Made by a program: the position numbers and the translations under genes
The notes under the pieces: generated by a model
The model's input: only the letters and a program-made list of their open reading frames with translations
What the model was told of the DNA's origin: nothing
Database searches by the model: none
NCBI GenBank assembly: GCA_026416585.1
Contig: JAOAEV010000067.1
Coordinates: 1 to 34,412 of the forward strand
DNA: 34,412 nucleotides
DNA from: Chlorobiota bacterium
Lineage (GTDB): Bacteria; Bacteroidota; Ignavibacteria; Kapaibacteriales; NICIL-2
Direction: 5' to 3'
In this document: one piece after another, positions 29,950 through 34,412 of the stretch
Layout: every line of letters begins with the position of its first letter
Position numbering within the stretch: the stretch's first letter is position 1

Positions 29950-30603
29950 CTATTGTAGCGAATTGGCAGCTTTATCGCGCCACGGGGCAAACGCATCATA
30001 GAACACCAGAACGCTCCCTTGGTGGACGACAATCTCGACCGCTTCGCTTCGAGAACGATTGCGTGCTCCTTCGCGTCTGCCCAGTTCCAAATACTCATCA
30101 TCGAGTTCCCAGAGCAAGCCACGTGTGGTCAGGCGTGCTCTCGGCTGCGGTACAAGCGAAATCAATTCATTAGGCTTAGTGGGAAGCACAAGTGATGTAT
30201 GCACAGGATGACCGATGCGACCAGCGTCATACACCTCCAGTGGTATAACCTCGCTATATCGCAGGAATACGCTCCAATTATTTAGCGTATGTTCAAGCTC
30301 CCCACCGTTCATTCCGACAATTACAAAGCTATCGGCGCCCCATTCCAGACCAAACTGCAGCGCTTTCTCAAAATCATTCGAGTCTTGATTAGGCACGTGC
30401 ACGATATGAGAACCCGGGAATGCCGATTCTGGCTGTGGCAGACAGCGAAATGAATCAAGATCCCCGACGATGACGTGCGGCACGACTCCACGTTCAAGTA
30501 ATTGCCACGCAGAGCCATCGGCTGCGATAACCCTATCAAAGCGAAGCTTTTCTAGCTCATGTCGCGGTGGCATAGTACCACTCAAACTCAGCAAGGCACG
30601 CAT
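29950..30603 (-). CDS. thiN: Thiamine pyrophosphokinase
   Basis: Transfers pyrophosphate from ATP to thiamine, giving the cofactor thiamine diphosphate. The 217-residue protein has the family motifs AADGSAWQLL (28-37), PHVIVGDLDSF (42-52) and NQDSNDFEKAL (72-82), which bind metal and ATP. IVGMNGGELEHTLNN follows, and the C-terminal beta-domain contains TTRGLLWEL, the thiamine-binding side. It starts at ATG 30603. It lies 65 bases after lpxH on the same strand. No thiamine-biosynthesis genes or TPP riboswitch were seen in the gap, so it likely serves salvage as a housekeeping gene. Confidence 0.92.
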   Translation of the reverse strand: MRALLSLSGTMPPRHELEKLRFDRVIAADGSAWQLLERGVVPHVIVGDLDSFRCLPQPESAFPGSHIVHVPNQDSNDFEKALQFGLEWGADSFVIVGMNGGELEHTLNNWSVFLRYSEVIPLEVYDAGRIGHPVHTSLVLPTKPNELISLVPQPRARLTTRGLLWELDDEYLELGRREGARNRSRSEAVEIVVHQGSVLVFYDAFAPWRDKAANSLQ

Positions 30604-30668
30604 AGCGTTAGTATCTCGTTCGGTTGAAACGACGTTAGTGCTGCATGCGCTCGTGTAAAGGCATCGTA

Positions 30669-31439
30669 CTACTTGTCATGCTCAGAGCGTGCCGACACAA
30701 CTAACGCGCAAACATCGGTCAGCTGAAACCTCTCACCGTCGAAAATCCCAACCAATGGAGTCGAACCAATCCAATCACCGAGATTGACGTAGTAGCCGTA
30801 TCGAGAGCCTCGGGCGACTTCGACATAAGCGCTGCGGTGACTGTGCCCCATCACGACATAGTCGAACCCATCGTCGCAAATTTTTTTGCGGGCAAATTCT
30901 TCTAGGCTATCGCCTGTTCCATACTCGCGTACAGACGAGTAGTGGCGACTTTTTTTTGATGAGAGCGCAGCAAGACCAATCCCGATATCCGGATGAACCC
31001 ATCGATACGCAGCATTTGCAAGTTTACTGCGTAAGACAGCACGGAGCAACAGGTACCCTCGATCGCCGGCGACCTTGCCATCGCCGTGCGCGATGTAGAA
31101 TCGCTTGCCGTCAATCGTTCGCTCCACGTCCGACCAATGAATGGTAATGCCCAAGTCTTGTTCGAAAAAATCCCTGTGTCCGAAATCGTGATTGCCAACG
31201 ATGTATTCAACGTTAGCACCACGCCGACGGAAGCGGTCGAACGCAGCAATGGTACGGAAGAACTCCCGCGGTATTGCCCTGCGATACTCGAACCAGTAAT
31301 CGAAGATATCACCGACAACAAAAAGCGTCTGTGCTCGTGGTGCGATTGCATCCAATAGCGCAATGAACAGCTCTTCACGAGGCTGCCACTGCGTGCGCTC
31401 CCCATAACCCAAATGAACGTCCGATACAAAGTACACCAT
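30669..31439 (-). CDS. lpxH: UDP-2,3-diacylglucosamine diphosphatase (LpxH-like)
   Basis: A calcineurin-like phosphoesterase that cleaves UDP-2,3-diacylglucosamine to lipid X in lipid A synthesis. Metal-binding motifs are in order: SDVHLG (Asp7, His9), VVGDIFDYWFEY (Asp44, Asp47), VGNHDFG (Asn83, His84), YIAHGDGKV (His118) and MGHSHR (His199, His201). The DYWFEY and HGDG segments are characteristic of LpxH and its LpxH2-type relatives. At 256 residues it fits. The ATG lies three bases after the FAH-family gene, which ties it to the paa-like operon. A general UDP-sugar pyrophosphatase cannot be excluded. Confidence 0.92.
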   Translation of the reverse strand: MVYFVSDVHLGYGERTQWQPREELFIALLDAIAPRAQTLFVVGDIFDYWFEYRRAIPREFFRTIAAFDRFRRRGANVEYIVGNHDFGHRDFFEQDLGITIHWSDVERTIDGKRFYIAHGDGKVAGDRGYLLLRAVLRSKLANAAYRWVHPDIGIGLAALSSKKSRHYSSVREYGTGDSLEEFARKKICDDGFDYVVMGHSHRSAYVEVARGSRYGYYVNLGDWIGSTPLVGIFDGERFQLTDVCALVVSARSEHDK

Positions 31440-31442
31440 CGC

Positions 31443-32117
31443 TTACGCAGGAGCAACCACAACATCAAGCTGGGCGTAATCTCCCAGCCATGCATGAACA
31501 ACATCATTTTCTGACAATTGACCCACACCAGATGGCGTACCAGTAAAAAGCACATCACCCGGTTGGAGCACGAACCACCGAGACAGATACTCGAGCAACT
31601 CGGGGATACTCCATATCATCGAGCGAGGACAACCGCGTTGCCGAATCACACTATTCACCGACAAGCCAAACTCTACCTCATCAATGCTTGCGATGGAGTC
31701 AGCAGGCACAAACGGAGATATCGGTGCACTCGTAGCAAAGCCTTTGGCAATCGCCCACGGCAGACCATGATGCTTTGCACGCGATTGGAGATCCCGCAAC
31801 GTGACATCAATCCCAACCGCATAGGCAGCAATTGCTGCTCGGGCCTCGTCAAGGTTTGCACGATAGAGATGCTCACCGATGAGCACAACAACTTCTACTT
31901 CGTGGTGGAGAACGTGTCCAGCTTCTGGTGGTCTGATAGCTGCTCCGTTGGAGATGTACGCCGTCGGCGGTTTGAGAAACACGATCGGTTCTTGTGGCGG
32001 AGCAGCATTCATCTCGCGCGCGTGGTCAGCATAATTACGCCCAATGCAATAGATCGTTCCGAGAGGCACGTGTCGCCCATTGGCGAACTCGATTGTTGGT
32101 CCGAACTGCGCGTTCAT
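31443..32117 (-). CDS. Fumarylacetoacetate hydrolase family protein
   Basis: A 224-residue FAH-fold hydrolase or decarboxylase acting on C-C bonds of oxo-acids; near relatives include acylpyruvases and oxaloacetate decarboxylases (YcgM/FAHD1 group). The metal site is HHEVEVVVLIG (Glu73, Glu75) and Asp104 in GIDVTLRDLQ. Other motifs are YCIGRNYADHAREM, FLKPPTAY and the C-terminal GDVLFTGTPSGVG. ATG 32117 overlaps the paaD TGA (ATGA), indicating coupled translation with the phenylacetate genes. A role in aromatic acid breakdown is plausible but inferred from context; the longer start at 32153 lies inside paaD. Confidence 0.9.
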   Translation of the reverse strand: MNAQFGPTIEFANGRHVPLGTIYCIGRNYADHAREMNAAPPQEPIVFLKPPTAYISNGAAIRPPEAGHVLHHEVEVVVLIGEHLYRANLDEARAAIAAYAVGIDVTLRDLQSRAKHHGLPWAIAKGFATSAPISPFVPADSIASIDEVEFGLSVNSVIRQRGCPRSMIWSIPELLEYLSRWFVLQPGDVLFTGTPSGVGQLSENDVVHAWLGDYAQLDVVVAPA

Positions 32118-32611
32118 CCAATAGCTTTGAATTGCTCGAATGCTTGGTGACAATCATTGCAGTAGTAGATCGCGCGGCAGAGTGCCGGTCCAAACGGGGA
32201 TCGCAACACGGTATGAGAGCTGCCACAGTATGGGCACTGCGCATTGAGCAGAATGTCTGGCTCGAACTCTCCCTCGAAGCGCGGTGGTGGTGCGAACCCG
32301 ATCTCAGCAAGAGCCTGGCGTCCACGTTCACTCAGCCGGTTTGACGACCACGGCGTTGCGTAGTCCACGATAACCTCGACATTGGCGATAGAAAGTGCCG
32401 ACAGCCGATGGGCAATCGCCGTGCGTATCGCGTCCAATGCTGGGCACCCTACAAATGTGGGTGTAATCGTAACAGCAACTCGACTGTCGGAAATGGTGAC
32501 ATCCGTGACAATCCCCATATCCACGATCGAAAGCACAGGAATTTCTGGATCATGGACATCTTCCAGTGCAGCATATACCATTTCGTGGGTAAGCATCGTT
32601 GCAGGCTTCAT
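32114..32611 (-). CDS. paaD: Phenylacetyl-CoA epoxidase subunit PaaD
   Basis: A MIP18/DUF59-type protein thought to help assemble the metal centre of the PaaABCE ring-1,2-epoxidase. The N-terminal domain has LEDVHDPEIPVLSIVDMGIV and FVGCPALDAIR. A C-terminal zinc ribbon has Cys pairs in QCPYCGS and YYCNDCHQAF. At 165 residues it equals E. coli PaaD. ATG 32611 lies one base after the paaC stop; earlier ATGs overlap paaC. The presence of the zinc ribbon separates PaaD from SufT-type DUF59 proteins. Confidence 0.93.
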   Translation of the reverse strand: MKPATMLTHEMVYAALEDVHDPEIPVLSIVDMGIVTDVTISDSRVAVTITPTFVGCPALDAIRTAIAHRLSALSIANVEVIVDYATPWSSNRLSERGRQALAEIGFAPPPRFEGEFEPDILLNAQCPYCGSSHTVLRSPFGPALCRAIYYCNDCHQAFEQFKAIG

Positions 32612-32612
32612 G

Positions 32613-33374
32613 TTACCACTCGGCATCAGGATCGAGGCGAAACACAATGGTCATTTCATCCAGCAACGGCTGGAAATGTTCTGTGTGGTAGCCACGACGT
32701 CCGCCCACGGTAGGCTCAAGCGCCTCAATTGAGGGCACGCGGTAACCCGACGACTCGAGAACAGGAACGATATCGTCGAGCCATCGGGAGCGAATAGCGT
32801 TCTCGCCAGGAAAAATGCCACTACGCCAGAGTTCATCATCGTAGGGGCTTGGTTCGAACATGCCCAGAGCATATGGCATAAGAAGATCGAGTGCTGCCTG
32901 CATCCGTGCCCGACTTTCATCGGTACCTTCACTACCGAGTAATCGCAGCCATGTATTGGCATGAAACACGTGGTACTTGATCTCTCCTCGCACTTTGTTT
33001 GCAAGCTCCGCTAATGGTTTGTATGCACTTTCGCGGAGAGCTTCATAGCGTACACGCTCAGCATAGTCGAACAGTGCATGTCGCATCAGTGCAACGGCAT
33101 AATCCTGCGTTGGTAATTCAACCAAGTGGCAGCAGCGATACTGATGCTCCTGGCGCATGAATGCCATGTGATCAGGCTTGGGATGCCCTAACTGGTGTAA
33201 GAGGGTATAGAGCGCCAACGCATGACCAATCTTGTCCTGTGCAATCGAAGAAAATGCGATATCTTCTTCGAGAATCGGCGCAAGTCCTGTCCACTCGCTA
33301 TTGCGGTGTCCATAAATAAGCGCATCGTCAGCCATCCGGACGAGCAAGTCTTCTAAAGCTGCACGGTGTTCCAT
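32613..33374 (-). CDS. paaC: Phenylacetyl-CoA epoxidase structural subunit PaaC
   Basis: The ferritin-like non-catalytic partner of PaaA in the phenylacetyl-CoA epoxidase. The 253-residue helical protein shows DDALIYGHRNSEWTG, EEDIAFSSIAQDKIGHA, YAERVRYEAL, VRGEIKYHVFHANTWLRLL and the C-terminal GRRGYHTEHFQPLLDEM, all typical of PaaC. ATG 33374 follows the paaB stop by two bases, and paaD follows its stop by one base. PaaA and PaaC are related folds, but length and the GRRGYHTE end favour PaaC. Confidence 0.95.
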   Translation of the reverse strand: MEHRAALEDLLVRMADDALIYGHRNSEWTGLAPILEEDIAFSSIAQDKIGHALALYTLLHQLGHPKPDHMAFMRQEHQYRCCHLVELPTQDYAVALMRHALFDYAERVRYEALRESAYKPLAELANKVRGEIKYHVFHANTWLRLLGSEGTDESRARMQAALDLLMPYALGMFEPSPYDDELWRSGIFPGENAIRSRWLDDIVPVLESSGYRVPSIEALEPTVGGRRGYHTEHFQPLLDEMTIVFRLDPDAEW

Positions 33375-33376
33375 TG

Positions 33377-33793
33377 TTACTCGGATTGTTGCTGCTGCGA
33401 TTGTTCCTGCTGGATGCGTTGCTTCCACGCCAAGATTTTCTGCATTACTTTATAGCCACTGGCGTCGCGATAGTCTTTTTCCGGCGTTGTGGCGAACAGA
33501 TCCGCATCGTCCGGCGAAAAAGCGATAACCTCGCTGGTTTTGACGACCCACAAGTTGACACATTGTGAGCGACGCGCATACTGTTCCTTGGCAAAGACCA
33601 TCGCCATCTCCGCATTCGGTGCATGAATACTCCCGACGTGGATATGCCGTGCTCCACTTTTTGCTTGATGGAACACCTCGAATGTTTGTAAATGCGAGCC
33701 TTCCGGGACACCTACGAACGGCTCCTGCTCTGTCGGTATTGCCAATCGCGTCACACGTGGATCGAGCGATTGGAGCGTCACATCACGGCTCAT
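33377..33793 (-). CDS. paaB: Phenylacetyl-CoA epoxidase subunit PaaB
   Basis: A small subunit that bridges PaaA-PaaC heterodimers. The core EVFHQAKSGARHIHVGSIHA, AKEQYARR and LWVVKTSEVIA is diagnostic. At 138 residues it exceeds the roughly 95-residue proteobacterial form through an N-terminal extension (residues 1-38, SLDPRVTRL) seen in Bacteroidota-type PaaB, plus a Gln-rich end. ATG 33793 overlaps the DUF4286 stop (ATGA). The gene that normally precedes paaB, paaA, is absent here. Confidence 0.95.
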   Translation of the reverse strand: MSRDVTLQSLDPRVTRLAIPTEQEPFVGVPEGSHLQTFEVFHQAKSGARHIHVGSIHAPNAEMAMVFAKEQYARRSQCVNLWVVKTSEVIAFSPDDADLFATTPEKDYRDASGYKVMQKILAWKQRIQQEQSQQQQSE

Positions 33794-34128
33794 GCGTTCG
33801 GCTTCGATTGTTCAACTTGGTTCCATGACTTTGTCTCCATGACCATTCTCTCAATAGTGACTACACCACCGTATCTGGCGTTGTGCGCAGCCTGCAGGAC
33901 AGGTGCAAAATCTTTCCGGTATTGTTCATACAGCTCCAACGACGGACAGTAATACTGCACGCAATACTGCACCGCCCCCTCACATGCTGGCTCCATGACT
34001 CGAGCAACATCCACGTGTGTAAACATCTCCGTGTTCACCACGTCACGGATATGCTCATCCATCATCCACGTAATCCATTCATCCTCGAACGCGACCGGCA
34101 CAGTGCAGAGCACCTGATAGATGATCAT
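33790..34128 (-). CDS. DUF4286 family protein
   Basis: A 112-residue ferredoxin-like-fold protein of the DUF4286 family, without known activity. Family features are the start MIIYQVLCTVP, WITWMMDEHIRDV, YCVQYYCPSLELYEQYRKDF and APVLQAAHNARYGG. ATG 34128 gives the normal MIIY start; TTG 34140 is an alternative. The stop overlaps the paaB start, so it appears to head the paa operon, with a promoter-like TATTTTTG at 34149-34156. Its location before paaB is unusual and suggests a link to that pathway (inference). Confidence 0.88.
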   Translation of the reverse strand: MIIYQVLCTVPVAFEDEWITWMMDEHIRDVVNTEMFTHVDVARVMEPACEGAVQYCVQYYCPSLELYEQYRKDFAPVLQAAHNARYGGVVTIERMVMETKSWNQVEQSKPNA

Positions 34129-34148
34129 CGGACTCGACAAAAACCGTA

Positions 34149-34156
34149 CAAAAATA
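34149..34156 (-). promoter_or_regulatory. Putative -7 promoter element (TATTTTTG) of the DUF4286-paa operon
   Basis: The minus strand reads TATTTTTG in an AT-rich 67-base gap, 20 bases before ATG 34128. It matches TAnnTTTG and is identical to the element before the ureohydrolase gene. A TTTG lies upstream but only 13 bases away, too close for a standard -33 box. Confidence 0.4.
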
Positions 34157-34195
34157 AGAGTAACTTGTGCAAATTATTGTACATAAAAGCATGCA

Positions 34196-34412
34196 TCAAC
34201 GCATGTCGAGAACCTCCACACCGGGAGGAACATTGAATTGGAATATATCGCTGCGTGTCAGTGGATCTATTCGCAATGAACGAATTTGCCACTGTTCCTG
34301 ACCACCAGAGTGTTCCACAACGATCGCTGCAAGCTTTTGTTTGCGAAACTCCAACACGATCCGACGGACACCGTAGAGAGTTTTCTCGCTCGGCAGGAGA
34401 ATTACTCGATTG
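34196..34412 (-). CDS. lolA: Outer-membrane lipoprotein carrier LolA (C-terminal end only)
   Basis: The last 71 codons of a gene entering from the right edge. The translated end includes SEKTLYGVRRIVLEF, LRIDPLTRSDIFQFNVPPG and the final GVEVLDMR. The F-x-F-x-x-P-x-GVEV-D ending is characteristic of LolA, the periplasmic chaperone carrying lipoproteins to the outer membrane. The start and signal peptide lie outside the window. The gap to DUF4286 is 67 bases with a promoter-like element, so the next operon is probably independent. Confidence 0.75.
   Translation of the reverse strand, partial: NRVILLPSEKTLYGVRRIVLEFRKQKLAAIVVEHSGGQEQWQIRSLRIDPLTRSDIFQFNVPPGVEVLDMR

Follow-up and report, generated by a model that had tools for sequence, protein, structure and literature searches.

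The run of genes paaB-paaC-paaD raises the question of what its products do where the gene of the catalytic subunit is lacking. The stretch analysed here (the window) covers contig C21 (JAOAEV010000067.1) from end to end, 34,412 nucleotides (nt) in all, and comes from a Chlorobiota bacterium whose genome (GCA_026416585.1; 2.06 Mb in 131 contigs) is 97.6% complete and 3.3% contaminated. The naming of the window genes with Pfam and NCBIfam found neither the catalytic gene paaA nor the reductase gene paaE, as an earlier note on this DNA had stated, and agreed with the note that PaaB, PaaC and PaaD are intact, PaaB being just under the TIGR02157 cut-off and over that of Pfam. The note had left two explanations: either paaA and paaE are elsewhere, or the remaining proteins do another job. 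The answer to this puzzle looks ordinary, with the catalytic gene elsewhere in the genome and a pathway of the PaaN type. The noteworthy part is that one branch of PaaA is sharply tied to the absence of PaaZ and carries changed residues near the di-iron site.

The search of the genome with PF05138 returned two genes, the paaC of the window and a paaA on contig C32 (C32:2-814). The product of the latter scored 440.8 bits against TIGR02156 (cut-off 280), and its alignment to PaaA structures of E. coli spans 280 residues. Its frame runs off the start of the contig, with some 40 residues missing (290 amino acids versus 329 in the same-genus genomes G001 and G005). The protein is 96-97% identical to the PaaA of four named Kapabacteria/Chlorobiota metagenome-assembled genomes, which marks the source as a Candidatus Kapaibacterium. 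The lack of the catalytic paaA is a property of the operon and not of the genome. The supposition that both missing genes are elsewhere holds for paaA, while no PaaE over the cut-off (420.8) was found in the genome. In the same-genus G001, G003, G004 and G005, paaA adjoins two ATP-binding cassette (ABC) transporter genes, named NatB and NatA by eye, as it does on C32, and the run DUF4286-paaB-C-D-FAH-lpxH stands elsewhere. Two of these assemblies are single contigs, in which paaA and paaC are 51 kb (G004) and 1.29 Mb apart (G005; 0.87 Mb in the opposite direction should the genome be circular). The fifth same-genus genome, G002 (86% complete), had neither a PF05138 nor a DUF4286 match. Among the 61 genomes examined, PF05138 was matched in 51, and 47 of these hold both PaaA and PaaC; the other four (G034, G048, G053, G060), assemblies of 320-570 contigs, hold one PF05138 gene only. 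After subtraction of three genomes of family f3 that carry another PaaA branch, paaA and paaC lie within 2 kb in 13 of 44 genomes and not in 31, where they are on different contigs (25) or on one contig (6). Since linked paaABCD is also present outside the order, the split looks derived. Two PaaC matches each have one TGA stop codon inside the matched stretch (G050:C35:92896-93657 and G008:C1:74928-75698).

The explanation favoured here, with a probability of roughly 0.7, is a dispersed aerobic phenylacetyl-coenzyme A (CoA) pathway of the PaaN type, whose epoxidase subunits come from unlinked loci. A di-iron phenylacetyl-CoA epoxidase would take its bridging subunit from paaB of the window, its structural subunit from paaC and its assembly protein from paaD; PaaA would be made from the unlinked C32 locus, and the subunits would assemble in trans. 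The epoxide may then be isomerised by a PaaG-like crotonase on C22 (C22:29268-30032; about 256 bits, cut-off 345.15), for which PaaG is the best NCBIfam model. The opened product may be oxidised by a separate aldehyde dehydrogenase of the PaaN/PacL type on C25, not by a fused PaaZ. The PaaN-like gene (C25:4-1653) is cut by the contig edge and scored 559.6-560.7 bits against a cut-off of 578.75, with 63 bits for the next best family; same-genus copies reached 560-569 bits. A PaaF-like crotonase that adjoins the PaaG-like gene on C22 (304.2 bits, cut-off 371) is a candidate hydratase of the lower pathway, and a second crotonase is usually found beside the PaaG-like gene at Kapabacteria loci. Phenylacetyl-CoA is the presumed substrate, and the electron donor is presumptive as well. 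Two papers describe the dehydrogenase of many bacteria as a protein distinct from the hydratase (PMC9007349; PMC7497051). The paa clusters of Azospirillum B510 and of plasmid pSTY contain PaaN, and within the stretches inspected no paaZ is annotated.

The best match of the source genome to the PaaZ model TIGR02278 reached 100.1 bits (cut-off 562.8) and covered the dehydrogenase part only, and PaaZ over the cut-off occurred in 3 of the 61 genomes, all of family f3. PaaE over the cut-off was found in none of the 61. Full-length PaaE-like proteins (above 250 bits, below the cut-off) occur in families f2, f3, f8 and f9 and in one f7 genome, with none in f1, the family of the source genome; the PaaE-like-bearing G022, G032 and G037 have no PF05138 match. 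In the source genome, the two halves of PaaE match different proteins, a 2Fe-2S ferredoxin and a flavin reductase. A ferredoxin resembling the C-terminal part of PaaE (L074:6496-8049, on G000:C78) is located beside a SUF-associated DUF59 protein and, judged by eye, a NifU-like protein and an Rrf2-like regulator, and is possibly a general electron donor. This ferredoxin was rejected as a stand-in for PaaE because its position beside Fe-S assembly genes makes it not specific. The genome search for paaA, paaE, paaG, paaZ and paaK proposed in the earlier note returned paaA and a PaaG-like gene below its cut-off, and no PaaE, PaaZ or PaaK over theirs. Both C22 crotonases scored 178-179 bits for the model of the alternative-type oxepin-CoA hydrolase (cut-off 300), a model with which no genome-wide search was made. 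The neighbours of PaaN shared no family in more than 3 of 20 loci and hence gave no clue to the oxepin hydrolase.

The relation between PaaA and PaaZ was followed in 395 genomes of the phylum searched with this PaaA, of which 132 gave a match and 263 were without PaaA. By identity, 37 genomes fell at 72-100% (this branch), 92 at 51-64% and 3 at 32-34%. Five of the 92 (G064, G078, G112, G129, G281) are intermediate in the tree and G291, a partial congener of G112, was placed with them; the remaining 86 (51-61%) were assigned to the other branch by identity, 27 Bacteroidota-phylum sequences of which are in the tree. PaaZ over the cut-off was found in 0 of the 37 genomes of this branch, 0 of the 6 intermediates, 83 of the 86, 0 of the 3 distant genomes and 0 of the 263 without PaaA; the exceptions in the 86 are G171 and G245, which lack it, and G276 with a fragment of 286 bits. 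In the genomes sampled, the enzyme of this PaaA branch lacks the customary ring-opening partner. PaaN was present in 32 of the 37 (542-648 bits; 21 over the cut-off and 11 at 542-577 bits). Elsewhere it was missing from all 5 intermediates examined and from all 16 genomes chosen among the 263, and the one carrier among 14 genomes chosen from the 86 was G214, which has PaaZ too. A PaaG-like protein of at least 236 bits, a threshold chosen after the data were seen, occurred in 37/37 genomes of this branch and in 4/263 without PaaA (G148, G313, G406, G416). The PaaG-like scores of this branch (236-284 bits) are all below the PaaG cut-off, as are those of most other-branch PaaG, and 5 of the 395 genomes pass it. 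No PaaK over the cut-off was found in the 395 genomes, and the matches to the PaaK model in this branch were none better than E 5.5e-12. Most of the phylum's PaaZ-bearing genomes likewise have a weak PaaK match or none, with 500 bits exceeded in 7 of the 86, so that the absence of PaaK says little and was dropped as a mark of the branch. None of the 216 plasmid records with a match held a PaaA at least 60% identical to this one. Within genus g106, the E. coli-type PaaA of one species (G214) is accompanied by PaaZ, PaaN and a strong PaaK-like match, and two others (G128 and G415) combine this PaaA branch with PaaN, without PaaZ. Two genomes of family f14 carry a distant PaaA-like gene, 32-34% identical, that adjoins a PaaG-like crotonase (G097:C3:213022-214633; G299:C15:108645-110291), and have no PaaZ over the cut-off.

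The PaaA tree (93 rows with the source PaaA in twice; unrooted, drawn from the midpoint) united the 57 rows of this branch in one group (100/98). Together with five intermediates, the branch was set apart at 100/100 from the PaaA of E. coli, of the Bacteroidota phylum (27 rows) and of three proteobacterial plasmids that carry PaaN. The alignment comprised 112 rows of this branch (the source twice), 28 of the other branch (E. coli included) and the 5 intermediates. The PaaA of this branch is 50-56% identical to that of E. coli, and ten of the eleven residues given in section 7 of PMC4498308 (iron ligands, lysine bridge, substrate) are identical in all 112 rows and invariant over the alignment as a whole. 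These include the di-iron ligands E42, E72, H75, D126, E155 and H158; Phe108, Lys103 and the lysine bridge are kept as well. The eleventh, Leu286, was left out, as it is not leucine in the E. coli numbering used and its column may be misnumbered. Seventeen positions separate the branches, among them 46, 51, 59, 77, 78, 127, 136, 193 and 194; at each, the main letter of a branch is shared by at least 85% of its own rows and by less than 5% of those of the other. Because positions of this set are near the ligand or bridge residues 42, 49, 75 and 126 in sequence, they may line the ring pocket. Branch-specific positions occur in PaaC, too. In PaaC of the five intermediates (L202-L206), the position equivalent to residue 48 of the window PaaC is Glu, where this branch mostly has Lys; the Glu gives a motif like E72/H75 of PaaA, and a metal site may be partly preserved there in PaaC. 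The three proteobacterial PaaA encoded on plasmids with PaaN (Azospirillum B510, VLB120 and a Rhizobium) keep other-branch letters at most of the 17 positions, and E. coli letters at 46, 77, 78 and 127 save one Q at 46, so that the use of PaaN was rejected as the cause of the branch residues. The Rhizobium PaaA carries the letter of this branch at 164 and 296; on its plasmid, the record of which is not annotated, paaA and the PaaN gene are about 20 kb apart.

Outside Kapabacteria, the genes of this branch often form the order TetR-paaA-B-C-D. Of the 79 genome-collection loci long enough to show it, some of them Kapabacteria records, 48 had a TetR gene within 2.5 kb upstream of paaA. In the phylum sample, such a gene was found at 10 of the 11 branch loci, nine within 200 nt or overlapping and one at 918 nt. 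None was found in 22 order-sample loci, three of which are of the other branch. The best solved match of the TetR protein beside paaA is 3vpr, of the TetR family. We take this structure to be PfmR of Thermus, and hence not PaaR itself. The Thermus TetR protein PaaR (TTHA0973) heads paaABCD and a bifunctional dehydrogenase, and its effector is phenylacetyl-CoA, as described in PMC6651687. Locus L196, of the other branch, has the order TetR, a PaaE-like gene (415.5 bits, just under the cut-off), paaA-B-C-D and a PaaG-like gene. A family of about 470 amino acids, a membrane protein by eye, occurs in 11 Bacteroidota loci (L093, L095, L097, L099, L107, L113, L123, L129, L134, L135, L148). Its gene stands between paaB and paaC in L093 and L097 (e.g. 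L097:11262-12677), and the paaB-paaC gap is of similar size in eight others; the L097 protein had no NCBIfam match.

Several observations weigh against a phenylacetyl-CoA pathway of the PaaN type. The source genome has no PaaE or PaaK over the cut-off, and its PaaG-like, PaaF-like and PaaN proteins are all below their NCBIfam cut-offs. At positions 46, 77, 78 and 127 of PaaA, next to or near the ligands, none of the 28 other-branch rows, that of E. coli among them, agrees with this branch. PaaZ and PaaN are both missing in five branch genomes (G179, G212, G252, G311, G342). Moreover, an FAH-family gene beside paaB in G009 leaves room for a functional link of this family to the epoxidase. The strongest rival explanation is that the branch is the epoxidase of another aryl- or acyl-CoA (e.g. 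hydroxyphenylacetyl- or indoleacetyl-CoA), to which the PaaG- and PaaN-like enzymes are adapted. The clean separation of the branch, both alone and with the intermediates, the branch-specific positions of PaaA, several of them near the ligands in sequence, and those of PaaC are consistent with another substrate. However, all the iron ligands, the lysine bridge, Phe108 and Lys103 are retained, and the TetR gene adjoins paaA outside Kapabacteria as the gene of the phenylacetyl-CoA-responsive PaaR does in Thermus (PMC6651687). The absence of PaaZ from all 37 genomes points to the other substrate too, as do the low PaaG-like scores, although most other-branch PaaG also stay below the cut-off. On balance this explanation is unlikely. 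In its widest form, a speculative one of similarly low probability, Kapabacteria and scattered Bacteroidota might share a second PaaABCD lineage with a remodelled active site, acting on a non-phenylacetyl aryl-CoA in an unrecognised oxygen-dependent route.

The second alternative of the earlier note, in which PaaB, PaaC and PaaD act without PaaA in another job, is very improbable: paaBCD does form a tight run with DUF4286, FAH and lpxH instead of paaA, but PaaA accompanies PaaC in 47 of the 51 PF05138-bearing genomes, the remaining four being fragmented assemblies, and both proteins carry branch-specific positions. An assembly or binning artefact, to which the 131 contigs and the position of paaA at a contig edge might point, was rejected as hardly credible, and the assembly rearrangement considered in the note is excluded for the genus, since paaA and paaC are apart in the single-contig G004 and G005. 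The ABC-transporter genes beside paaA on C32 also adjoin it in all four same-genus relatives that have paaA.

Table 1. Genes of the packed run and its upstream neighbour in the window, with the matches on which their naming is based.
Feature	Position	Strand	Match
LolA-like C-terminal piece, cut by contig end; upstream neighbour	34196..34411	-	NCBIfam lolA 26.4 bits, cut-off 112 (weak)
DUF4286 (PF14114), 112 amino acids; heads the packed run	33790..34128	-	Pfam 83.3 bits, cut-off 25.8
paaB, bridging subunit	33377..33793	-	Pfam PaaB 96.1 bits, over cut-off; TIGR02157 83.7 bits, just under 85.45
paaC, structural subunit	32613..33374	-	TIGR02158 232.5 bits, cut-off 133.35; solved PaaC chains matched
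paaD, DUF59 and zinc-ribbon assembly factor	32114..32611	-	TIGR02159 155.9 bits, cut-off 108.15; Zn_ribbon_PaaD
FAA-hydrolase-family (FAH) enzyme	31443..32117	-	PF01557 179.2 bits; nearest NCBIfam PRK10691, below cut-off
lpxH-like phosphoesterase	30669..31439	-	Pfam Metallophos; both LpxH models under cut-off

The genes surrounding paaBCD (Table 1) largely follow the earlier description. Read from the sequence, ATGA overlaps occur at DUF4286/paaB, as had been noticed, and at paaD/FAH, and the gaps are 2 nt at paaB-paaC, 1 nt at paaC-paaD and 3 nt at FAH-lpxH. The translational linkage claimed for the run thus has its overlaps at two junctions, while paaB-paaC and paaC-paaD are close without overlapping. 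The FAH enzyme and an lpxH-like gene do come after paaD. The upstream neighbour named lolA has a match to the C-terminal part of LolA, albeit a weak one, and G005 has a longer LolA-like homologue at the equivalent place. The promoter-like element reported before DUF4286 was not confirmed: no sigma-70-like site was found on the minus strand of 30500-34412 by a scan that does not cover Bacteroidota-type promoters, and the plus strand of the same interval had 3 such sites versus 3.5 expected by chance.

The linkage of DUF4286 to paaB is conserved in four of the five same-genus genomes (G001, G003, G004, G005) and in G007, of another genus, where the two are 176 nt apart, which excludes a peculiarity of this genome. 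In G006, DUF4286 and the start of a PaaC stand on one contig in matching order. DUF4286 occurs in 36 of the 61 genomes, with one match each; in the 29 of these that belong to other families, it either does not share a contig with paaC or is separated from it by more than 30 kb, and the linkage was seen only in the family of this genome. DUF4286 was therefore rejected, as the default, as a part of the enzyme. Its single-sequence structure model was poor (predicted local distance difference test score 55.4), and no solved homologue was found at E 1 or better. The FAH gene was seen after paaD only in the genus (G001, G003, G004 and G005 besides the source genome). G009, a genome of family f3 with the other PaaA branch, has an FAH homologue (L056:6800-7999; 43% identical to that of the window) next to paaB but encoded on the strand opposite to it, which recalls the paaD-FAH pair of the window. 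For DUF4286 and FAH, arrival beside paaBCD by rearrangement is more probable than a part in the enzyme.

The results bear on how these genes are used as markers. A 2026 survey proposed paaA together with paaC as robust markers of the phenylacetate pathway that are rare outside the ligase context; in its main text, words beginning with Bacteroid or Chlorobi occur 0 times (PMC13186573). The branch described here carries paaA and paaC without PaaZ, and paaA is often unlinked in Kapabacteria, so that surveys based on context could miss or misread it. If the substrate were another aryl-CoA, the presence of paaA and paaC would not mark phenylacetate degradation. A question that the branch raises is whether substitutions close to the di-iron centre shift the choice of substrate. 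The branch is apparently unstudied so far. In the literature searched, which comprised open papers only, we found no description of it, no paper on Kapabacteria and phenylacetate, and none on Chitinophaga with PaaA and phenylacetate.

Compared with known systems, the genes of the window share their subunit families with PaaABC(D)E of E. coli and Klebsiella, and ten ligand, bridge and substrate residues are kept in PaaA of the branch. They differ from that system in the unlinking of paaA from paaBCD, in the lack of a PaaE over the cut-off and in the separate branch of their PaaA. The PaaR-paaABCD operon of Thermus thermophilus (TTHA0973-0968), with TetR directly before paaA and no paaE between, resembles many branch loci outside Kapabacteria, whereas it holds a bifunctional aldehyde dehydrogenase and the branch has PaaZ over the cut-off in none of its 37 genomes. 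With the PaaN/PacL-type systems of Azoarcus, Paraburkholderia bryophila and Pseudomonas VLB120, the source genome shares the absence of any PaaZ found, and it has a candidate for the separate PaaN-type dehydrogenase and one for the PaaG isomerase, both below the curated cut-offs; it is distinguished from them by the scattering of its genes and by its PaaA, since the three PaaN-plasmid PaaA tested fall in the E. coli branch.

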